Shown here piece after piece: positions 3,361 through 59,460 of a DNA stretch of 64,000 bases. Both the position numbers and the translations under genes were made by a program. The stretch spans positions 6,014,683-6,078,682 of the forward strand of contig NC_079223.1 in the NCBI RefSeq assembly GCF_029633865.1, in the 5' to 3' direction. Below the pieces are notes generated by a model. It was not told the DNA's origin and ran no database searches. It saw only the letters and a program-made list of their open reading frames with translations. Numbering within the stretch: the stretch's first letter is position 1; every line of letters begins with the position of its first letter. The DNA is from Lampris incognitus (Eukaryota; Chordata; Actinopteri; Lampriformes; Lampridae).

Positions 3361-4015
3361 TCTTCCACTTCCGGTGTGGGACGATAGCGGCGCGAATTCA
3401 CGTTTGCGGCGGCCTCACCCAGTACCGTCCATGCAGTGTCTTTGTCCACGACTGCGTCTAAGTCTGTCTTCGCTTGATGGCTGGGAGAGCCGGTGCTGGA
3501 TCGGCTGGGAGAGCTTGGTCCGAAGAGCGTGGTCTGACGGCGACCTGGCCTGGCCTTGACTGTGTTTTCAGTGTCGCGGTGTGGGGTGCGGGGAGGTGTG
3601 TCGAGGGTGTCTGGCTGGGAGAGCCGGTGCTGGATCGGCTGGGGGAGCCTGGTCTGCTGCGTCCGGTGGGCCCAAAGACCACGGCCCGGACCGGAGCTGC
3701 GCCCGAGGAGGAAACACCGAGGGCGGTCTGACAGGATGCGGAAGCGGGGCAGGCTAAGCTAACTGCTAGCTTAGCCTGTTCCGACAGTCATCCTGGCTGG
3801 CGTTCGTTCTCCTGGACAGTGATTGTTGTTGTTGTTTTGTTTTGATTAGTTTAGATATGTGTGTTAGTTTAGATATGTGTGTTATTTTGGATATATGTAT
3901 GTGTTATTTTGGACGTACGTGTTATTTTGGACATGTGTGTTCTTGTAGTTTTTGGACATGTGTGTTTTTGTCTTTGTGTTGCTCTGCCGTGGGCTCGGGG
4001 AAACGATATTAAGCC
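3361..4015 (+). mobile_element. Dispersed repeat R1, copy 1
   Basis: This copy has the same head (CTTCCGGTGTGGGACG), GC-rich body with an internal duplication of the GAGCCGGTGCTGGAT phrase, and end (CGTGGGCTCGGGGAAACGAT). In place of the giant array it holds only a handful of degenerate 20-23-bp units (TTTTGGACATGTGTGTT) at about 3850-3970. It therefore shows a state close to the unexpanded one. Confidence 0.75.
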
Positions 4016-6038: not shown

Positions 6039-6511
6039 AATGGACAGTACCTAAGTTCATAATTATAGGAAAAGGCAAAAGGGAAAAAACAAGAACTATT
6101 TCACAGGGAAAAGAGGTAATTTGTCATTTTGTGGCGAGGAGATATGGCAAGGTCAAAGAAAAGTGCCTCTTGTACCTCTCCATAGAAACATGAGGCTAAT
6201 TTGTCATCTGAAAACCAGAGGGTTCAGAACGGCCCCCCAACTCTGGCTACTCTACCCTTATTTTAATTAAATTCAGTTTATTGTCATTAAAAACAACGTG
6301 CAGGCACATGTTAAAAATGAAATGAGGGGTAACGACGTAGGTAAATGGAGAACAAACTTCACACTCCTGTCATTTTGCACATTCTGCTTTCTGCTTGACA
6401 ACAGAATACGCCAGACCCGTCTCAAATAGTAGACTTCGTAACTGTGCCAAATTGAAAGCCAGCGGTGGATTAACAAAAAAACCCAAAAACAAACTTAAAA
6501 TTATGACCTTC
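6039..6511. other. No recognisable feature
   Basis: AT-rich sequence between a SINE-B and R1 copy 2. Confidence 0.5.
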
Positions 6512-9290
6512 TGCTTCCGGTGTGGGAAGATGGCGGCGCGAGTTCACGTTTGCCCCGGCCTCACCCAGTACTGTCCACGCAGTGTCTTTGTCCACGTCTA
6601 AGTTTGTGTCTTCGTTTGATGGCTGGGACAGCTGGTGCTGGATTGGCTGGGAGGGCTTGGTCTGCTGCGTCCGGTGGGCCCAGGGACCACGGCTCTGCCT
6701 GGAGCTGCGCCAGAAGAGGAAACACCGAGGGTGGTCTGAAGGGACATGGAAGCGGGGCAGGCTGGGCTAACTGCTAGCCCATGTAGACCGGCAGTTCCGA
6801 CAGTCATCCTGGCGTTCGCTCTCTTGGACAGTGAAATTTTATTATTGTATTTGATGGATATGTGTGTTCTTGTAGTTTGGATATGTGTGTGTTTTTGTGG
6901 TTTGGGTATGTGTGTTCTTGTAGTTTGGATATATGTGTTCTTGTAGTTTGGATATGTGTGTTCTTGTAGTTTGGATATGTGTGTTCTTGTAGTTTGGATA
7001 TGTGTGTTCTTGTAGTTTGGATGTGTGTGTTCTTGTAGTTTGGATGTGTGTGTTCTTGTAGTTTGGATGTGTGTGTTCTTGTAGTTTGGATATGTGTGTT
7101 CTTGTAGTTTGGATATATGTGTTCTTGTAGTTTGGATATGTGTGTTCTTGTAGTTTGGTTGTGTGTGTTTTTGTAGTTTGGATGTGTGTGTTCTTGTAGT
7201 TTGGATATGTGTGTTCTTGTAGTTTGGATGTGTGTGTTCTTGTAGTTTGGATGTGTGTGTTCTTGTAGTTTGGATATATGTGTTCTTGTAGTTTGGATGT
7301 GTGTGTTCTTGTAGTTTGGATGTGTGTGTTCTTGTAGTTTGGATATATGTGTTGTAGTTTGGATGTGTGTGTTCTTGTGGTTTGGATGTGTGTGTTCTTG
7401 TGGTTTGGATATGTGTGTTCTTGTAGTTTGGATGTGTGTGTTCTTGTGGTTTGGATATGTGTGTTCTTGAAGTTTGGATGTGTGTGTTCTTGCGGTCTGG
7501 GTATGTGTGTTCTTGTGGCTTGGATATGTGTGTTCTTGTAGTTTGGATATGTGTGTTCTTGTAGTTTGGATATGTGTGTTCTTGTAGTTTGGATATGTGT
7601 GTTCTTGTGGTCTGGGTATGTGTTCTTGTACTTTGGATATGTGTGTTCTTGTGGTTTGGATATGTGTGTTCTTGTGGTTTGGGTATGTGTGTTCTTGTAG
7701 TTTGGATGTGTGTGTTCTTGTAGTTTGGATATGTGTTCTTGTAGTTTGGATATGTGTGTTCTTGTAGTTTGGATTGTGTGTTCTTGTGGTTTGGGTATGT
7801 GTGTTCTTGTAGTTGGGATCTGTGTGTTCTTGTGGTTTGGATATGTGTGTTCTTGTAGTTTGGATATGTGTGTTCTTGTAGTTTGGATATGTGTGTTCTT
7901 GTAGTTTGGATGTGTGTGTGCTTGTAGTGTGGATGTGTGTGTTCTTGTACTTTGGATATGTGTGTTCTTGTAGTGTGGATATGTGTGTTCTTGTGGTTTG
8001 GATATGTGTGTTCTTGTAGTTTGGATGTGTGTGTTCCTGTAGTTTGGATGTGTGTGTTCTTGTATTGTGGATGTGTGTGTTCTTGTAGTGTGGATGTGTG
8101 TGTTCTTGTAGTGTGGATATGTGTGTTCTTGTAGTTTGGATATGTGTGTTCTTGTAGTTTGGATATGTGTGTTCTTGTAGTTTGGATGTGTGTGTTCTTG
8201 TAGTGTGGATGTGCGTGTTCTTGTAGTTTGGATGTGTGTGTTCTTGTAGTGTGGATGTGTGTGTTCTTGTAGTTTGGATGTGTGTGTTCTTGTAGTGTGG
8301 ATGTGTGTGTTCTTGTAGTTTGGATGTGTGTGTTCTTGTAGTGTGGATGTGTGTGTTCTTGTGGTGTGGATGTGTGTGTTCTTGTAGTGTGGATGTGTGT
8401 GTTCTTGTAGTTTGGATGTGTGTGTTCTTGTAGTTTGGATATGTGTGTTCTTGTAGTTTGGATATGTGTGTTCTTGTAGTTTGGATATGTGTGTTCTTGT
8501 AGTTTGGATGTGTGTGTTCTTGTAGTTTGGATGTGTGTGTTCTTGCAGTGTGGATGTGTGTGTTCTGGTAGTTTGGATGTGTGTGTTCTTGTAGTTTGGA
8601 TGTGTGTGTTCTTGTAGTTTGGATGTGTGTGTTCTTGTAGTGTGGATATGTGTGTTCTTGTAGTTTGGATATGTGTGTTCCTGTAGTTTGGATGTGTGTG
8701 TTCTTGTAGTGTGGATGTGTGTGTTCTTGTGGTTTGGATGTGTGTGTTCTTGTAGTTTGGATGTGTGTGTTCTTGTAGTGTGGATGTGTGTGTTCTTGTG
8801 GTTTGGATGTGTGTGTTCTTGTAGTGTGGATGTGTGTGTTCTTGTAGTGTGGATGTGTGTGTTCTTGTAGTTTGGATAGGTGTGTTCTTGTAGTTTGGAT
8901 ATGTGTGTTCTTGTAGTTTGGATGTGTGTGTTCTTGTAGTTTGGATGTGTGTGTTCTTGTAGTGTGGATGTGTGTGTTCTTGTAGTGTGGATGTGTGTGT
9001 TCTTGTAGTTTGGATGTGTGTGTTCTTGTAGTGTGGATATGTGTGTTCTTGTGGTTTGGATATGTGTGTTCTTGTAGTTTGGATGTGTGTGTTCCTGTAG
9101 TTTGGATGTGTGTGTTCTTGTAGTGTGGATGTGTGTGTTCCTGTAGTTTGGATGTGTGTGTTCTTGTGGTTTGGATGTGTGTGTTCTTGTGGTTTGGATG
9201 TGTGTGTTCTTGTAGTTTGGATGTGTGTGTTCTCGTGGTGTGGATGTGTTGTTGTCTTTGTGCTGCACTGCTGTGGGCTGGGGGGAAACG
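6512..9290 (+). mobile_element. Dispersed repeat R1, copy 2, expanded by a 23-bp minisatellite
   Basis: The unit begins GCTTCCGGTGTGGGAAGATG, runs through a GC-rich 300-bp body (shared phrases GGTGCTGGAT, CCACGG, GAGGAAACACCGAGGG, CATCCTGG) and ends GTGGGCTGGGGGGAAACGAT. Other copies are at 3361, 9905 and 52902. A CTTCCGG followed by AAGATGGCGGC (6527-6537) resembles ETS plus YY1 promoter elements. The family is unknown to me. A retrotransposon-derived origin is inference. Confidence 0.75.
6848..9248 (+). repeat. Minisatellite, 23-bp unit, about 104 copies
   Basis: Units contain TTGGATRTGTGTGTTCTTG followed by TAG or TGG. The first position pair alternates TTTGG and TGTGG; the TGTGG variant appears only from about 7925 onward, so the array has at least two domains with different histories. 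A few units are shortened or carry single-base changes. No unit contains a stop on the minus strand in any phase, and 23 is not a multiple of 3. This gives very long open frames there (854 and 820 codons) with a 23-residue protein period. I treat these as artefacts. Confidence 0.95.
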
Positions 9291-9904
9291 ATGTGTCGCT
9301 TCATTTGAAGCGACCAGTAAAGTCTTCCTGAGTCCTGACTGAGCAGGGGGGGAAACCACCTCTGCCACCGCGGCGTGTCGTATTATTAGCGTTCAGGTTA
9401 TTTTAGGACCCATGAGGTTTGTAGCTCGTCGAGTCAACATCTTAATCAGAGACCGATAACGACACAAAGATACGAATAAAGACATGATGAGATGTAGCCG
9501 ACCACAGTAAGGTCTTTTTTGCACAATAATAATGTGATGTCATCAACAATCTGGTGTAGCTCTCTCTCCCCCCCAAAAAAGAAAGAAGTCCTGCATCTTC
9601 TGCACCTTCCTCTTTGGTTCCAGCAGATACTCTACCTCACAGGACACACCGGCGGACAAAACGCTCCGGGCCCAAATCGTGGCGACGAAACCGCAAGTCA
9701 CATTTCCTCTCTTTCTCTGAACCGAACGCCCCCATCTTGTTCAAACCCGTCAGTGGATGATACACCTATTTCCCACGAGGAATGGGGGCGAGCAGCCTGG
9801 CTTTGAATGTGGCCTCAAATCGAATGGGATGTGGCTTTCATCATCTTCACGGCATAGACTGAGAAGGTGCGTGACGGTTCTTTTCCGGAGGGTCAGCTTA
9901 AAAG
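9291..9904. other. No recognisable feature
   Basis: Spacer between the two inverted R1 copies. The only open frames are short and lack motifs. Confidence 0.5.
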
Positions 9905-10691
9905 CAGTTATCGTTTACAGTACCAGAACCAGAAACACTTTATGGGTCGTTCCATTTCATGCACGTCGCTTCCCCCAGCCCACGGCAGTGCAACACAAAG
10001 ACAGAAACACATCCCAGAACTACAAGAACACACATATCCAAAATAAAACTTATATCTAAACTAAATAAAAAGAAAAAAATCACTGTCCAGAAGAACGAAC
10101 GCCAGCCAGGAGGACTGTCGGAACTGCTGGTCTGCGTGGGCTAGCAGCTAGCTTAGCCTGCCCCGCTTCCGCGTCCTGTCAGACCACCGTCGGTGTTTCC
10201 TCTTCGGGTGCAACTCCGGTCAGGGCCGTGGTGCTTGGGCCCACAGGATGCAGCAGACCAAGCTCTCCCTTAGCCGATCCAGCGCCAGCTCTCCCAGCCA
10301 GACACCTTCGACAAACCTCCCCGCACTCCACACTAAAAACACAATCAACGCCAGGCGAGGCCGTCGCCAGACCGCCCTCGGTGTTATGGGAACTGCCGGT
10401 CTGCATGGGCTAGCAGCTAGCTTAGCCTGCCCCGCTTCGGCGTCCTGTCAGACCGCCCTCGGTGTTTCCTCTTCGGGCACAGCTCCAAGCAGGGCCGTGG
10501 TCGCCGGGCCCACAGGGCGCCGCAGACCGAGCTCCCCCAGCCGATCCAGCGCCAGCTCTCCCAGCCATCAAACAAAGACACAAACTTAGACGTGGACAAA
10601 CATGGAGAAAGACACTGCATGCACAGTACCTACTGGGTGAGACCGCCGCAGACGTGAACTCGTGCCACCATCTCCCCCCACCGGAAGCAGA
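9905..10691 (-). mobile_element. Dispersed repeat R1, copy 3 (inverted)
   Basis: A reverse copy with the head at 10691 and, beyond the minisatellite seed (AAGAACACACATATCC near 10024), a tail region around 9918-9990 (AACACTTTATGGGTCG). The GC-rich body is present twice (10142-10400 and 10401-10580). Copies 2 and 3 face each other across about 600 bp. Confidence 0.75.
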
Positions 10692-11460
10692 ACTATATCG
10701 CTTCAACCACAACACTCATGTCTAAACCAGAACCCTTGGCTGCACACAGTTACTGTGGTTTTGCAATCCCTTCATGCAAATCACAATACAGCGGCCACAT
10801 TATGTGCTTATCTCGACCATGAAGCATGTGGTCTAGCCAAGGCCCTGACAGCTCACCAGGAACCAGAGAGCAGTGGACTCCTGCAGGCGACGGTCGCCTC
10901 CTGCACCTTCCAACAAATAAAGGGGATTTATAAATTTGCCAGGGGGTTGATGATCCTCTCTCAGCTGTCCTCGTTAACTGCTTATGCTCCATAACATGGA
11001 TGGAGAGTCGGTGGCTCTGAAGTACGAGGCACCAGGGGAATCACACGCCCGCTCAATAACCAGTGAGTCAGCTGAAGGAAACAGCCTGCCGCCGCCCTTG
11101 TTATCCTGCATGGAAGACTGCCAGCATCCTCAACACCTGCAATTCGTCTCTCAGGGCACACAGAGGCCGCCGGCGGCCGTGGACCTCAATGTGCTCTGTG
11201 GTGCCGACCAGCACCACCAACACCCCGGGACGCTGTGACGGGTCTGCAGACCCTGGGTGGTCAGATGAGCACGCACAGGTAATATGAAGGATGCAGTCTG
11301 CTAAACCGGCTGATGTGTTGCTCTAAATTTGGTATGCTGGTACAAACTTCATATACTGCAAATTCAGCTTTTAGACAAGGATTTGTTGTTGTCCTCCTTG
11401 AGGAGCTTTATTGGCACAGCCTGTACATAAAAGTGTACCTCTATATACACTGTACATACA
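10692..11460. other. No recognisable feature
   Basis: Short overlapping frames on both strands, none with known motifs. Confidence 0.5.
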
Positions 11461-13510: not shown

Positions 13511-13738
13511 CGATCCCAGATCCGGACCAGATCCGGATCCGAGCCGGGCCAGATCAGGACCAGAGCCGGGCCAGATCCGGACCAGATCAGGGCCAGATCC
13601 GGATCAGAGCCGGACCAGATTCGGGCCAGCTCCGGATCAGAGCCGGACCAGATCCGGATCAGAACCGGACCAGGTCCGGATCAGAGCCGGACCAGATCAG
13701 GACCAGATCCGGATCAGAGCCGGACCAGATCAGAACCA
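13511..13738 (+). repeat. Minisatellite, 11-bp unit, about 20 copies
   Basis: Units are CAGATCCGGAT, CAGAGCCGGAC, CAGATCAGGAC and close variants in strict 11-base register. Unit types are interspersed, often alternating GATCCGG and GAGCCGG. Confidence 0.92.
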
Positions 13739-14199
13739 GGGTCACTATGGGCTCAAGAGCATTAAAAAAAAACATGCCACTCAGGGCGACGTGAAAGGTT
13801 CCTTCTGCACCCCCGCAAAGCAAGGCTGCACAGAGCTGCGGGGTCTGGACTGCAGCATCAGCATCCTTCAAATGAACGAACTCTCACCTCGCTGCTAATT
13901 CTACAACGCACAACACAATATCACAACGGTATGCCACAACCAAACTATATAGCACAATCCCCGGCGGCGCCGCCTTTTAGTTCACCCTGAAAGACGACGA
14001 CGCACACAGAGGATATCCTTCAGCGGCGTCCTGAACGCGGAGCTGGCCTCCTTCCCCTGCGGACGGACGGACGGACGGCGAGTTCGTGTTTCCCTGAAGT
14101 GCGGAATACAAAACCACGTTTCTGACTGACGGCTCGGGGAGAGACGTCTCCACGTGCCCTCCCGCGACTGGGATTCATAGTTTCAGGTCGACCCCAAAT

Positions 14200-15050
14200 C
14201 AATGCAACCGGTTACTTTCTTGCCCGGTGCGGGATTCGATACCAGGTGTACTGCACCACAAGGCGACGTCGCTAACCGCTCGGCTAAAGGGTCAGACCCG
14301 TTGGCTACGGACTAACGTGTTTTATTACTGGTTTACAGTCGTCACCCTCTCCCGGAAGCGCGCCCCCTCGCGCTTTGTTACTCCCGCGCTCCGAAGAGAC
14401 TTCTGAGGATCTGCACACTTCCGGATCCCACCGCTGCAATCGGTTACTTTCTTGCCCGGTGCGGGATTCGATACCGGGTGTACTGCACCACAAGGCGACG
14501 TCACTAACCGCTCGGCTAAAGGGTCAGACCTGTTGGCTAGGGGCTAACGTGTCTTATTACTGGTTTACAGTCGTCACCCTCTCCTGGAAGCGCGCCCTCT
14601 CGCGCTTTGTTATTCCCGCGCTCCGAAGAGACTTCTGAGGCTCTGCACACTTCCGGATCCCACCGCTGCAACCGGTTACTTTCTTGCCCAGTGCGGGATT
14701 CGATACGGCGTGTACTGCGCCACAAGGCGACGTCACTAACCGCTCGGCTAAAGCACTGTTTCTCAACCCACTCCTCAAGGACCCCCTATCCTGCATATTT
14801 TCTTTGCAACCCTGAATAGGTACCTGTTTGTAGTTATTCAACCAATCAGCAATGAATTTTGTCAGACGTTGCACACCTTGCATAATTAAGTGCTGCGAGA
14901 TGATTGGTCGAGTAAGTACAAGCAGGGCTACCTATGCAGGGTTACAGTGAAAATCTGCAGGATAGGGGTCCCTTGAGGACTGGGTTGGGAAACACTGGAC
15001 TAAAGGGTCAGACCTGTTAGCTAGGGGCTAACGTGTCTTATTAGTAGTTT
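14200..15050 (-). repeat. SINE-C / LTR-like tandem array (three heads, period about 236 bp)
   Basis: On the minus strand each unit carries TTTAGCCGAGCGGTTAG (a type-II tRNA A box), CTTGTGGTGCAGTACAC, TATCGAATCCCGCACCGGGC and GTAACCGGTTGC. It continues GATCCGGAAGTGTGCAGA, CTCTTCGGAGCGCG, GGGAGAGGGTGACGACTGTA. Heads recur near 14201, 14437 and 14673. The last is split by a hAT-type insert. A tRNA-Ser-like SINE or an LTR remnant are both possible. Confidence 0.75.
14754..14997. mobile_element. hAT-type short element with 8-bp target duplication
   Basis: This 244-bp element is flanked by GGCTAAAG (14746-14753) and GACTAAAG (14998-15005), an 8-bp duplication with one change. Its ends are inverted repeats of about 50 bp: CACTGTTTCTCAACCCACTC against CAGTGTTTCCCAACCCAGTC read inward. 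It has no coding capacity. It is nested inside the SINE-C array. Confidence 0.9.
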
Positions 15051-38112: not shown

Positions 38113-39332
38113 CACTCACCGGCCACTTTATTAGGCACACCTGTCCAACTGCTCGTTAACGCAAATTTCTAACCAGCCAATCACATGGCAGCAACTCAAT
38201 GCATTTAGGCATGTAGACATGGTCAAGACGATCTGCTGCAGTTCAAACCGAGCATCAGAATGGGGAAGAAAGGTGATTTAAGTGACTTTGAACGTGGCAT
38301 GGTTGTTGGTGCCAGACGGGCTGGTCTGAGTATTTCAGAAACTGCTGATCTACTGGGATTTTCACGCACAACCATCTCTAGGGTTTACAGAGAATGGTCC
38401 GAAAAAGAGAAAATATCCAGTGAGCAGCAGTTCAGTGGGCGAAAATGCCTTGTTGATGCCAGAGGTCAGAGGAGAATGGCCAGACTGGTTCGAGCTGACA
38501 GAAAGGCAACAGTAACTCAAATAACCACTCATTACAACCGAGGTATGCAGAAGAGCATCTCTGAACGCTCAACACGTCGAACCTTGAGGCAGATGGGCTA
38601 CAGCAGCAGAAGACCACACCGGGTGCCACTCCTGTCAGCTAAGAACAGGAAACTGAGGCTACAATTCGCACAGGCTCACCAAAATTGGACAATAGAAGAT
38701 TGGAAAAACGTTGCCTGGTCTGATGAGTCTCGATTTCTGCTGCGACATTCGGATGGTAGGGTCAGAATTTGGCGTCAACAACATGAAAGCATGGATCCAT
38801 CCTGCCTTGTATCAACGGTTCAGGCTGGTGGTGGTGGTGTAATGGTGTGGGGGATATTTTCTTGGCACACTTTGGGCCCCTTAGTACCAATTCAGCTTCG
38901 TGTCAACCCCACATCCTACCTGAGTATTGTTGCTGACCATGTCCATCCCTTTATGACCACAGTGTTCCCATCTTCTGATGGCTACTTCCAGCAGGATAAC
39001 GCGCCATGTCATAAAGCTCGAATCATCTCAGACTGGTTTCTTGAACATGACAATGAGTTCACTGTATTCAAATGGCCTCCACAGTCACCAGATCTCAATC
39101 CAATAGAGCACCTTTGGGATGTGATGGACCGGGAGATTCGCATCATGGATGTGCAGCCGACAAATCTGCAGCAACTGCGTGATGCTATCATGTCAATATG
39201 GACCAAACTCTCTGAGGAATGTTTCCAGTACCTTGTTGAATCTATGCCACGAAGGATTAAGGCAGTTCTGAAGGCAAAAGGGGGTCCAACCCGGTACTAG
39301 CAAGGTTTACCTAATAAAGTGGCCAGTGAGTG
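38113..39332 (+). mobile_element. Tc1/mariner element with open transposase frame (DD36E spacing)
   Basis: This 1220-bp element is bounded by TA on both sides and by inverted ends that match over about 23 bases with one mismatch: left CACTCACCGGCCACTTTATT, right reading inward CACTCACTGGCCACTTTATT. It encloses one uninterrupted transposase frame and sits inside a TA/TG microsatellite. The short single terminal repeats lack the long IR/DR arms seen in the other Tc1 element of this window. Confidence 0.93.
38260..39300 (+). CDS. Tc1/mariner transposase, 346 residues, uninterrupted
   Basis: This frame starts at ATG and reads [13 protein letters not shown], ending KGGPTRY and a TAG stop. The N-terminal third carries paired-type helix-turn-helix motifs ([20 protein letters not shown]). 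The catalytic triad is visible: Asp155 in WSDES, Asp246 in QQDNAPCH and Glu283 in NPIEHLWD. There are 36 residues between the second Asp and the Glu, matching the spacing of the DD36E group rather than classical DD34E Tc1. Length and all motifs are normal, with no stop or frameshift, so the copy is young or recently purified. Whether it is active cannot be told from sequence alone. Confidence 0.95.
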
Positions 39333-52901: not shown

Positions 52902-53312
52902 GAGGAATCAGGAACACTTTATTTGTCATTTCACTTCATGCACTTGCGTACATGAAATGAAATGCTGTTTCCCCAAGCCCACAGCACTATAACACAAAGA
53001 CAAACTACAAGAACACACATACCCAAACTAACACATACAAAAAAAATCACTGTCCAAGGGAACGAACGCCAGCCAGGATGACTGTCGGAACCGCTGGTCT
53101 GCAAGGGTTAGCAGTTACCTTAGCCCGCCCCGCTTCCACCTGCTGTCAGACCGTCCTCAGCGTTTCCTCTTCGGGCATTCCTCTTCGACCACAGCCCCAG
53201 GCAGGGGCTGTGGTCTGCGGACCCACCGGACGCAGCAGACCAAGCTCTCCCAGCCGATCCAGCGCCAGCTCCCCCAGCCAGACACCCTCAACACACAGGC
53301 CAGACACCTTAC
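52902..53312 (-). mobile_element. Dispersed repeat R1, copy 4 (5' truncated)
   Basis: A reverse copy that begins in the tail (GGAACACTTTATTTGTCATT), passes through a single-unit minisatellite seed (CAAGAACACACATACCCAAA) and the GC-rich body, and ends in CAGACACCCTCAACAC. It then abuts the Rex3-like LINE, giving a chimeric minus-strand open frame. Confidence 0.75.
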
Positions 53313-53315
53313 GGA

Positions 53316-54024
53316 GTAAACTAATTTCAGCCGCTTGTATCCGCGATCTCACCCTTTCAGTCACTACCCAAAGCTCATGACCATAGGTGAGGGTTGGAAT
53401 GAAGACTGACTGGTAAATTGAGAGCTTTGCCTTCCGGCTCAGTTCCCTCTTCACCACAACGGTCCGGTACGACATCCACATTACTGCTGATGCTGCACCA
53501 ATCCGCCTGTCAATCTCCCGCTCACTCGTGAACAAGACTGTGAGATACTTGAACTCCTTCACTTGAGGCAACAACTCATCCCCAACCCGGAGAGAACAAT
53601 CCACCATTTTCCAGTAGAGAACCATGGCCTCAGACTTGGAGGTGCTGACTCTCATCCCGGCCATTTCACACTCAGTTGCAAACTGCCCCAGTGCGCGCTG
53701 GAGGTTGCGTTTTGATGAAGCCAACAAAACCACATAATCTGCGAAGAGCAGAGATGGAATTCTGAGGTTCCCAAAATGGTCACACTCTTCACCTTGGCTG
53801 CGCCTTTAGATCCTGTCCATGAATATCACAAACAGAATCGGAGACAAGGGACAACCTTGGCGGAGTCCAACACCCACCGAAAACGTGTTTGACTTTGTGC
53901 CAAGAATGCAGACACAGCTCTCACTTTGGTTATACAAGGACCGGATGGCTTGTAGCACCTGCCCTGGTACCCCATACTCCCGCAGTACCCCCCCCCCTGG
54001 GGTGCCCAGGGGTACACTCTGTGA
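53316..54024 (-). mobile_element. Rex3-like (RTE clade) LINE fragment, reverse transcriptase damaged
   Basis: Read on the minus strand, this encodes part of a reverse transcriptase. It contains GMRVSTSKSEAMVL, a VKEFKYL block and EIDRRIGAASAVM, ending near LTYGHELWVV and IQAAEISLLRKVSG. The plus-strand phrase CGGAGACAAGGGACAACC resembles the diagnostic region used for Rex3 in fish. The expected FADD catalytic motif reads FADY (53734-53745), so the second catalytic Asp is lost, and a frame break separates the upstream part. It is truncated at both ends. Confidence 0.85.
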
Positions 54025-54455: not shown

Positions 54456-54603
54456 GTAAGTAAATGGGTCAGTGAAGCTGCAGTGTGAAGGGCAGAAACT
54501 GTTAAAATGAGTGGATTCACTAAATTATAAACATTCTTGAAAGAGTTGTGCAATGTTTTCTACATGTATTCCACTAAGAGGCCTCTTTCATGTCCATTTT
54601 CAG

Positions 54604-56039
54604 CAGACCTCAGTGCAATAGCCCTGAGAGAAAGTCCAAGGCAAACCGAAACCCCCGAGGAACACAGCTACAAACAGGGGAAGAAGCAGAGGGCCACACT
54701 TCGTTCCACTGAGAGAGACCACAAGAAGACATTTGAAGGCTCATTTATGTTGGATCCACTCTCTAAGTCAAGCCCTTTCAGTGCCCTCAACATGGACCCC
54801 AGGAAGCATTACTTGAGCTTGGGCTGCAGCAGTGGCAAACTCCCTGTCTCTATGCCCCATCCCATGGCCCGGACCCATCGGCAGACTTCACGCACAGACT
54901 GCCCAGCCGACCGCCTCAAATTCTTTGAAACCCTGCGACTGCTGCTGAAACTCACGTCCATGTCCTCAAAGAGGAAGGAAAAAGAGCAAAGGGGACTGGA
55001 GATCATGGCCTTCATGGGTCACAACAATGAGGTCATTTGGCTGGAGCTGCAGGCATGGCATGCGCGACGCTCCACCAGTGACCAAGACCTGTTCCTTTTC
55101 ACAGCCCGCCAAGCCATCCCTGACATAATCAACGAAGTGCTGCAATTCAAAGTCAACTTTGACAGTCTGAATCCTGGTCGATTTGCCTCAAATCCAGGGT
55201 CAGAGCAGAGCCAGTTAGGCTGTCAGAATTCCCCAGATCTAGTTTGTGGAGAAGGGAGGGAGCCTGCCGTAGCAGAGACAAACCACTGTGGCATAGATCC
55301 CTGGGGCTTTAGCGCCTGCCCACCTTCAACTATGAATGCAGCAGAACCCTTAGGCTCTGGGGCAGGTTGCAGGGATCACCTTCAGCGTCAGCGTTTGGCC
55401 TTTGAACAGGTCAAGCGGGTCATGGAGATGCTGGAGTCTGTGGAAGCATTGTATCCTTCTCTGCAGGCTTTGCAGAAGGACTATGAAAAATACGCAGCAC
55501 GGGACTTCCAGGGCAGGGTGCAGGCACTCTGCCTGTGGCTGAATATCACCCAGGACCTCAACCAGAAGCTGCGCGTTATGGCAACTGTTCTGGGCCTACA
55601 TGATCTGTCCCGTATTGGGTGGCCTGTCTTCGAGATCCCCTCACCTCGTTGCTCCCGTGGCAACGAGGAAGATGACAATGAAGAGGATGAGGAGAATGAC
55701 TCAACAGCCACTTTTACAGCTGATAGTGACGCAGAGGACAGGGATATTGGGGCGGACTGGGAAAAGGGTATGGCTGAAGGAGAGCTATCTCCCTCTCTGA
55801 CACCTAAATTTGCCCGGCTGTTGTCAGAGGACGAGTTTCTCCCAACTGCTGGGCCAGGAAATACAGAAATGACTGGGGGAAGTTCAGTGTTTTGCCCCAC
55901 AGCCATCTACAGGCCATTTGTAGATAAAGCTCTGAAACAGATGGGACTACGAAAACTGATCCTCAGACTGCACAAACTGATGGACCGTTCTCTTCAGAGG
56001 TCGAGGGCAGCCCTGCTCTGCCACACTCCTGCACAGGAG
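54604..56039 (+). CDS. map3k4: map3k4 coding exon 3 (large): regulatory region of the MTK1/MEKK4 kinase
   Basis: This 1436-nt exon encodes roughly residues 75-553 of MAP3K4, the MAP3K that relays GADD45 and stress signals to the p38 and JNK pathways. Conserved landmarks include EHSYKQGKKQRATLRSTERD, the SRTDCPADRLKFFETLRLLL block (from about residue 170), QAWHARR, FTARQAIPDIINEVL, EALYPSLQALQKDYEKYAA, GWPVFEIPSPR and IYRPFVDKALKQMGLRKLIL (from about 509). The first part overlaps the region where GADD45 proteins bind human MTK1. An acidic low-complexity insert lies near residues 427-445, where the family is variable. The acceptor is a tandem CAGCAG (54601-54606), so the exon can start at 54604 or 54607, changing Thr-Asp to Asn. 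The donor follows AQE with GTAAGG. The frame has no stop. Confidence 0.96.
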
Positions 56040-56906
56040 GTAAGGGCTGTTTGGCGATGAAGTAAATCACAATATGTTCAATTTTATGAAATGAATTATA
56101 CTTGAACCTCATATCCACACCATTTTTACAAAGCAATAGTATCTTCCTGCTGCAGGGGCCGCATTTAGTACCAATTATGATTTACTCAAGTATACAGAAT
56201 AAACTAGAATTGGATAAAAGAAGGTGGAATGTAAGATGCAGTGACAAGTTAGATTTACATGCAGCTTGTGTTTTTTTTTTTAACCACCTAAGAAAATATG
56301 TGTTAGGCTGTACTGTTCTTTTTGTAAATGCAGTGCCAAGTGGACGACATATCTAGGTTAATTAAGTGAAAATGTCTTTAAGTCAAGGGCCTTGTTAGAG
56401 TTGTATTAATGTATAGTGCCTTTTTTCTGGATCGGTTCTTCTCTGTTGAATTTGTCCGAGGAACTTAAAGGCCATAAAACTATCCAGAGAGCCGCCGTCC
56501 TCTCACAAGAGGGAAGTGTTTCTGTCATAATGGACGTGGTCTCCGTTAAGATCACGTTACATCTGTTGTCAGGATGGAAGTGGTCACTGAATTTATTTCT
56601 GCAGTGAAGCTAAATGGACATATGTGATGGCTGTTTTATAGTGAGCAGACCCTACACCTAGTGAAGATTCACTGGTGAGTCTGGAGGAGTGCATGACACT
56701 GTCAACAGAGTACCAAGTGATGGAGTATCCGGTACAGCTTCGACACACATATAGTCCACTCCTCTTGTGCTTTGTGGTCGTCCATTTACCTTTTTAGACA
56801 CTAGGTCAGGGAGTTGGTTGGTGCCTCCCAATTATTCAATATTACAATATCTTACTGTCAATTTGATGCATATTGCATTTTTTTAAAAATATTGCAATAT
56901 AATAAA

Positions 56907-57828: not shown

Positions 57829-59460
57829 TGCATCCGGAAAGTATTCACACCCCTTCACTTTCCCCACATTTTGTTATGTTACAGCTTTATTCCAAAATGG
57901 ATTAAATTCCTTTTTTTTTCATCAATCTACACACAATACCCCATAATGACAAAGCGAAAAAGGTTTTGTAGAAATTTTAGCAAATTTATTAAAAATGAAA
58001 AACTGAAATATTGCATGTACATAAGTATTCACACCCTTTACTCAGTACTTGGTTGAGGCACCCTTGGCAGCGATTACAGCCTCAAGTCTTCTTGGGTATG
58101 AAGCTACAAGCTTGGCACACCTATATTTGGGGTATTTCTCCCATTCTTCTCTGCAGATCCTCTCCAGCTCTGTAAGGTTAGATGGGGAGCGTCGCTGCAC
58201 AGCTATTTTCAGGTCTTTCCAGAGATGTTCAATGGTGTTCAAGTCTGGGCTCTGGCTGGGCCACTCAAGGACATTCATAGACTTGTCCTGAAGCCACTCC
58301 TTCGTTGTCTTGGCTGTGTGCTTAGGGTCATTGTCGTGTTGAAAGGTAAACCTTCGCCCCAGTCTGAGATCCTGAGCGCTCTGGAGCAGGTTTTCATCAA
58401 GGATCTCTCTGTACTTTGCTCCATTCATCTTTCCCTTGATCCTGACTAGTCTCCCAGTTCCCGCCGCTGAAAAACATCCCCACAGCATGATGCTGCCACC
58501 ACCATGCTTCACTGTAGGGATGGTATTAGCAAGGTGATGAGAGGTGCCTGGTTTCCTCCAGACGTGACGTTTGGCATTCAGGCCAAAGAGTTCAATCTTG
58601 GTTTCATCAGACCAGAGAATCTTGTTTCTCATGGTCTGAGAGTCCTTTAGGTGCTTTCTGGCAAACTCCAAGCAGGCTGTCATGTGCCTTTTACTGAGCA
58701 GAGGCTTCCGTCTGGCCACTCTACCATAAAGGCCTGATTGGTGGAGTGCTGCAGAGATGGTTGTCCTTCTGGAAGGTTCTCCCATCTCCACAGAGGAACG
58801 CTGGAGCTCTGTCAGAGTGACCATCGGGTTCTTGGTCACCTCCCTGAACAAGGCCCTTCTCCCCCGATTGCTCAGTTTGGCTGGGCGGCCAGCTCTAGGA
58901 AGAGTCCTGGTGGATCCAGACTTCTTCCATTTACGAATGGTGGAGACCACTGTGCTCTTCGGGACCTTCAAAGCTGTAGACATTTTTTTGTACCCTTCCC
59001 CAGATCTGTGCCTCGATACAATCCTGTCTCGGGGGTCCACAGACAATTCCTTTGACTTCATGGCTTGGTTTCTGCTCTGACATGCGCTGTCAACAGTGGG
59101 ACCTTATATAGACAGGTGTGTGCCTTTCCAAATCAGGTCCAATCAATTGAATTTACTACAGGTGGACTCCAATCAAGATGTATAAACATCTCAAGGATGA
59201 TTAGTGGAAACAGGATGAACCTGAGCTCAATTCTGAGTGTCATAGTAAAGGGTGTGAATACTTATGTACATGCAATATTTCAGTTTTTTATTTTTAATAA
59301 ATTTGCAAAAAAATCTACAAAACCTTTTTCACTTTGTCATTATGGGTATTGTGTGTAGATTGATGAGAAAAAAAAGGAATCTAATCCATTTTGGAATAAG
59401 GCTGTAACATAACAAAATGTGGGGAAAGTAAAGGGGTGTGAATACTTTCCGGATGCACTG
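57824..59460 (-). mobile_element. Tc1 element with IR/DR-type ends and open transposase frame
   Basis: This element of about 1.64 kb lies in intron 3 of map3k4. Its ends begin CAGTGCATCCGGAAAGTATT in both orientations and it sits in a TA repeat. Each end is a long arm of about 210 bases containing two direct copies of AAGTATTCACACC: outer copies near 57838 and 59448, inner copies near 58023 and 59263. This is the IR/DR arrangement known from fish Tc1 elements of the Sleeping Beauty type. The left end has two extra bases (CA) before the terminus, so its exact first base is uncertain. Confidence 0.93.
58042..59061 (-). CDS. Tc1 transposase (DD34E), 339 residues, uninterrupted
   Basis: The frame runs from ATG (MKSKELSVDPRD) to TGA after KGASTKY. 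It shows a paired-like DNA-binding half (YKKMSTALKVPKSTVVSTIR), a GRPAK AT-hook-like patch near residue 58, and the catalytic residues Asp152 (WSDET), Asp243 (QHDNDPKH) and Glu278 (IEHLW) with 34 residues between the last two. The motif before the Glu reads NTIEH where most family members have NPIEH, a substitution close to the active site. No stop or frameshift is present. It is antisense to map3k4. Confidence 0.95.
   Translation of the reverse strand: MKSKELSVDPRDRIVSRHRSGEGYKKMSTALKVPKSTVVSTIRKWKKSGSTRTLPRAGRPAKLSNRGRRALFREVTKNPMVTLTELQRSSVEMGEPSRRTTISAALHQSGLYGRVARRKPLLSKRHMTACLEFARKHLKDSQTMRNKILWSDETKIELFGLNAKRHVWRKPGTSHHLANTIPTVKHGGGSIMLWGCFSAAGTGRLVRIKGKMNGAKYREILDENLLQSAQDLRLGRRFTFQHDNDPKHTAKTTKEWLQDKSMNVLEWPSQSPDLNTIEHLWKDLKIAVQRRSPSNLTELERICREEWEKYPKYRCAKLVASYPRRLEAVIAAKGASTKY

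Follow-up and report, generated by a model that had tools for sequence, protein, structure and literature searches.

Probable recurrent growth of a 23-bp minisatellite from a seed dispersed by the R1 repeat of Lampris incognitus

A minisatellite of 23-bp units fills the TG-rich internal segment of one copy of R1, a dispersed repeat, in the 64,000-nucleotide stretch of Lampris incognitus DNA analyzed here (hereafter, the window), and arrays of the same unit are found at other R1 copies in the genome. Through comparison of these arrays with each other and with R1 copies that carry the unexpanded seed, we propose that the seed has grown into arrays recurrently and locally, with some copying of arrays along the way. 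We consider this explanation, taken as a whole, to be probable. In it, R1 would be moved by the reverse transcriptase of an L2-type LINE, and exchange or slippage between imperfect internal repeats would begin the expansion.

The array and the R1 copies of the window

Four R1 copies lie in the window (3362-4007, 6509-9338, 10692-9923 and 53296-52902), and both BLAST and direct reading agree with an earlier sequence-only reading that they have common flanks. Copy 2 (6509-9338, plus strand) carries the 23-bp array. Its GC-rich 5' part (6509-6853, plus strand), which starts CTTCCGGTG...GATGGCGGCGCG, matches copies 1 and 3 at 82-86% by BLAST, and its 3' tail (9254-9338, plus strand), delimited by alignment with 40 other R1 tails and by the stem-loop count given below, has a shortened stem-loop and a TAAAG...CCTGA end. 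The seed content of the remaining copies also proved to be as that reading described it. Copy 1 (3362-4007, plus strand; TRF and BLAST) has some five degenerate units of 18 bp at 3846-3941 (79% matches, TRF), and about one 23-bp unit was read directly in each of copy 3 (9923-10692, minus strand; BLAST), in which the 5' monomer occurs twice, and copy 4 (52902-53296, minus strand; BLAST), which is 5'-truncated. An open frame that overlaps copy 4 contains a fragment of the RVT_1 domain (53149-53805, minus strand; E 0.00018, below the Pfam cut-off); copy 4 may be an insertion into a dead LINE.

The array itself spans 6855-9253 (plus strand) with a period of 23, 104.6 copies, 92% matches and a score of 3905 in the TRF analysis of the window, which bears out the earlier description of an array of about 104 units inside copy 2. 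A wrap-around parse divides it into 105 units, the last one partial, of which 99 are exactly 23 bp long; the most frequent are TGGATATGTGTGTTCTTGTAGTT (n=25) and TGGATGTGTGTGTTCTTGTAGTT (n=21). Units with a final G (T23G), which create a TGTGG junction, account for 22 of the 105. The first is unit 47 (7907-7929), and none occurs among units 1-46 (P = 3.7e-7 if unit order is random). The variant map is therefore strongly non-uniform, and TGTGG is indeed confined to the right part of the array (7907-9240, plus strand), as the unit parse, a shuffle test and the cross-array comparison all indicate.

The sequence-only reading had gone on to conclude that the array grew in at least two phases. That conclusion does not follow, as one local T23G mutation spreading by turnover gives an identical map, and two-phase growth is not required by the data. 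We suggest instead that TGTGG would have arisen by local mutation (T to G at the last base) within the right part of an array already formed, and would have spread in that part only. Measured against the array consensus, units diverge most in deciles 3-5 (1.5-2.0 differences per unit), with 0.8-1.1 differences per unit in the right half and 1.2 and 0.9 in deciles 1 and 2, respectively; the right half is thus more uniform, and a simple gradient from an old left to a young right end is absent. A long repeated block of units was not found in the window array (longest 4; shuffles mean 3.6, maximum 5).

Other interpretations of the array were set aside. As a gene it fails, since the unit length of 23 is not divisible by 3 and a protein reading is without any support; on the reverse strand all three frames are open throughout it because the unit has no stop there. 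A DNA hairpin of the unit as the cause of expansion was likewise rejected, with two units folding on neither strand (0 kcal/mol). An Rfam search of the window returned no match at the gathering threshold.

The window contains several other features. A long open frame at 54531-56057 (plus strand) belongs to a kinase gene of the MAP3K4 type (MEKK4 N-terminal, E 1.9e-213) and is probably a large exon, and two more, at 38209-39297 (plus strand) and 58045-59103 (minus strand), encode Tc1/mariner-type transposases. A 232-bp unit is repeated 2.4 times at 14203-14753 (94% matches); by eye it is tRNA-like in part, and ARAGORN calls no tRNA there. The sole tRNA call of the window (13644-13721, Gln) falls inside a 22-bp minisatellite at 13516-13739 and is probably false.

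Arrays and seeds across the genome

Searching the 1.48-Gb assembly with the window array gave 28 matches at 11 places, the window among them. At least ten further arrays of the 23-bp unit are therefore present, each with 74-268 detected units and 1.7-6.3 kb long, and this count is a lower bound because only 11 of 2352 candidates were scored. The R1 tail lies 3' of the array in nine of the ten (eight by BLAST and L044 by alignment), at the same internal site in every case. On the 5' side, R1 sequence is present in five of the ten, with about 65 bp of other sequence between R1 and the array in L046. Three arrays (L040, L041 and L044) start abruptly in unrelated DNA, L039 is preceded by a run of N, and in L048 neither side is flanked by R1. 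The earlier view that a single R1 copy expanded thus stands within the window, where one of the four copies did so, and fails for the genome as a whole.

Unexpanded copies were sought with the 3' tail of the window copy. Forty of 1934 candidates were scored, at 40 places, and 30 of these, including the window, were read. The 29 others were picked by tail similarity regardless of array state, and since they were found through the window's own tail, their ratio to array copies does not give a frequency in the genome. With up to five edits allowed, the array site holds two units in 18 of them, one in 10 and none in 1, counts that depend on the cut-off, as many ordinary copies show zero units at a stricter one (4 substitutions). 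The growth of the array from a seed within R1, as first proposed, is accordingly upheld by the presence of at least one seed unit at the array position in 28 of the 29 unexpanded copies; the restriction of that growth to one copy is not.

The structure of the seed offers a plausible starting point. In the TG-rich internal segment of R1, TTTGGATRTGTG recurs in imperfect form, at a distance of 23-27 bp in 12 of the 29 copies read. Counted with up to 2 substitutions, a TTTGGATATGTG-like motif likewise occurs twice at a spacing of 23-27 bp in 12 of the 29 unexpanded copies, at 31-34 bp in 6, and at another spacing, singly or not at all in 11. Short direct repeats flanking the amplified motif are thus present in part of the unexpanded copies, and spaced imperfect direct repeats are held to initiate minisatellites in passages of PMC6947457 and PMC3389668. 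Slipped-strand or unequal-exchange events between the imperfect TTTGGATRTGTG copies could turn the seed into a 23-bp minisatellite; an array of a few units would then lengthen and partly homogenize at its own locus, giving rise to private unit types. The 5' part of R1 is also tandemly duplicated, by 54, 81, 54 and 96 bp in L011, L019, L034 and L037, respectively, so the seed is not the only site at which R1 tends to duplicate. Four ordinary copies (L015, L022, L024 and L026) have other inserted sequence near the seed.

Long arrays seem to be commonplace in this genome, judging from a small random sample. Tandem repeats with a period of at least 7 cover 48.3% of six 10-kb stretches taken at random (54,444 bases once N are excluded), compared with 9.7% of the window. 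Two stretches are tandem over their whole length (L049 1-10000, 29-bp units; L054 1-10000, 73-bp units), and further long arrays lie at L051 7807-9644 (13-bp units), L052 1-1667 (62-bp units) and L052 7167-8052 (15-bp units). The sample also contains an unexpanded R1 copy (L050 4881-5648) with 3.3 degenerate 21-bp units. In a genome that seems this rich in long tandem arrays, small as the sample is, no locus-specific cause is needed for the one in the window.

The confinement of arrays to chromosome ends was considered and rejected. The mean distance of the 11 array loci to the nearer chromosome end is 0.128 of the chromosome length (uniform expectation 0.25; KS p = 0.007), and other R1 copies are biased too, with a mean of 0.193 (p = 0.004) across 38 of the 40 tail-match places; the window was left out, as was the second of a pair of C1 copies separated by 4.7 kb, and 9 of the 38 are without unit counts. 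The difference between arrays and other copies is weak (p = 0.096 as a fraction of chromosome length and 0.032 in Mb). The chromosome of the window array carries one more expanded R1 copy, L047 (C16), at a distance of about 165 kb, and about 2.1 kb beyond it lies an R1 copy that is unexpanded.

R1 as a candidate retroelement

R1 is probably a non-autonomous retroelement moved by an L2-type LINE reverse transcriptase, a candidate assignment drawn from features of its sequence. The 3' tail forms an 18-pair stem-loop in which 93.1% of 605 cells are paired, a share that drops to 25-50% once the partner is slid along by 1-3 columns. This count covers 39 of 41 tails, L043 and L027 being excluded because deletions remove part of the helix. 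The covariation score is 0.133, against 0.026-0.057 for slid and 0.108 for shuffled versions. Cells changed on both sides number 7, against a shuffled mean of 1.3 and 3-7 in the slid versions; as they do not exceed the latter, compensatory change alone is not decisive for the stem-loop. Several ordinary copies, for example L011, L012, L022 and L029, end in TGATTC repeats (read directly, as opposed to counted).

L2-type elements leave short target-site duplications or none. At the three 5'-truncated array copies we found no target-site duplication, the longest shared word within 60 bp being 5-6 bp, and none was found at L048. Membership of R1 in the L2 group is putative. Parts of PMC4176376 describe ZfL2-1 and ZfL2-2, zebrafish LINEs of the L2 clade whose 3' stem-loop is needed for retrotransposition. 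R1 resembles them at the level of structure, in having a 3' stem-loop, and differs in that a reverse transcriptase was not seen within R1. An L2-type reverse transcriptase would grip the R1 stem-loop in a similar way and so move the element.

Births, copying and known systems

Arrays may have been born separately in different copies or copied with the element, and the unit variants bear on both. Unit types private to one array (three or more copies) occur in all 11 arrays, and T23G is found in the window array alone (1 of 11). Most variants are private to a single array, so turnover is local. A20G is common to 8 of the 11 (P = 0.004 against random columns) and, outside positions 6 and 8, is the sole variant shared beyond chance; when the three most shared variants outside these positions are pooled, sharing is borderline above chance (P = 0.05), which leans towards copying. 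In six arrays (L040, L041, L042, L043, L044 and L046) the longest repeated string of units exceeds all 60 shuffles, as expected of block duplication in place. Repeated strings in L039, L045, L047, L048 and the window array are not above shuffles, so that no more than 6 of the 11 arrays show block duplication.

By their subfamily markers, array copies fall mostly in one R1 subfamily. A 4-bp deletion in the 5' part occurs in four of six readable array copies (it is absent from L043, and L047 is aberrant) and in 3 of 27 others. The 3' marker, full or partial, is found in seven of nine array tails, and in partial form in 3-4 of 32 others (L015, L024, window copy 4 and perhaps L027). These counts leave out 11 of 44 items that fell below the 5' threshold and 3 of 44 below the 3' threshold, the tail of L047 among the failures. 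L043 is without either marker, and private types make up 245 of its 268 gap-free units. At least two births of arrays among R1 lineages are therefore indicated, unless gene conversion moved an array, and more than two births, together with some copying, are likely. The clustering of arrays in one subfamily could also mean fewer births and more copying than we propose.

The alternative that takes copying furthest is one in which a single R1 master gained an array, as in SVA elements, and array-bearing RNA was then retrotransposed, with small private changes following. The clustering just described favors it, in particular the 3' marker, and so do A20G and the second letters at positions 6 and 8, each of which is present in 7-9 of the 11 arrays. 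Likewise, of the nine array copies that have an R1 tail and can be read on their 5' side, three are truncated within the array, compared with roughly one or two among 29 ordinary copies judged by eye, and these three suggest that some arrays probably predate the copying of the element, though as evidence they are weak. Several observations speak against a single master, however: L043 lacks both markers and consists largely of private units, most other variants are private or shared at chance level, and target-site duplications were not found. In addition, unexpanded seeds already show the A/G mixture at positions 6 and 8. We therefore regard descent of all arrays from one master as unlikely and retain recurrent local growth, in which expansion would have occurred in at least two R1 lineages, possibly more, and some arrays would have been formed before their element was copied.

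The remaining alternatives fare worse. Array length could be largely a product of assembly, since long arrays are hard to assemble and runs of N, possibly gaps or masked sequence withheld from view, lie beside L039 and in two of the six random stretches; we find this very improbable, as collapsed or copied reads are unlikely to yield 11 arrays with private variants, six of them with ordered blocks, even if lengths in this one assembly may differ from the true ones. Hardly any weight falls on a single two-phase expansion peculiar to the window locus, for which the split variant map and the one expanded copy among four could be cited, given that nine more arrays occupy the same R1 site, a tenth lies outside R1 flanks, and one local mutation explains the map. 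Just as implausible is an independent satellite inserted into, or captured by, R1 copies: L048, bare of R1 on both sides, would fit, whereas seed units at the same position in nearly all unexpanded copies and the junction of 9 of 10 further arrays with the same R1 tail do not.

In SVA elements the VNTR is integral to the element itself. R1 is similar in its composite, apparently non-autonomous makeup, in which a GC-rich head and a tail enclose a tandem array, and it differs in that 29 of 29 other copies have 0-2 units, although all of these were found via one tail and few come from the array-rich subfamily. An internal VNTR in SVA is also noted in a section of PMC3389668. That source further cites, for the guppy, a model in which minisatellites are born by slippage at noncontiguous repeats (Taylor and Breden 2000). 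Spaced imperfect direct repeats start the array in both; in R1, by contrast, a mobile element spreads the seed, which has replicates within one genome. Alu and mouse B1 repeats are likewise non-autonomous retroelements that seed a minisatellite in some copies (Jurka and Gentles 2006 and Bois et al. 1998, as cited in portions of PMC9659126 and PMC6947457), and R1 may differ from them in that a single site of a single family has yielded at least ten kilobase-long arrays with one 23-bp unit. Overall, the window array is a well-replicated example of a known process, the birth of minisatellites from transposable elements; this process in general is covered in parts of PMC9659126, PMC6947457, PMC3389668, PMC4176376 and PMC10546739. 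Among the titles listed by searches of an open-licence library, none deals with R1, an element without a name to search by.

Finally, the origin of minisatellites is difficult to follow, as the earliest stages seldom survive. In this genome a single seed is present in many R1 copies, some expanded and most not, with flanks that can be read. We tentatively raise the idea, which we rate as rather less than an even chance, that one R1 subfamily, perhaps with a seed nearer to a perfect 23-bp period, repeatedly crosses a threshold and grows to kilobases, and that most sister copies never do. With such replicates one could measure the expansion threshold as well as the influence of seed perfection and of position on the chromosome. 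The window array belongs to a class, and its value lies in the number of replicates of a single seed; if the explanation is true, R1 is a natural replicate experiment on the birth of minisatellites.
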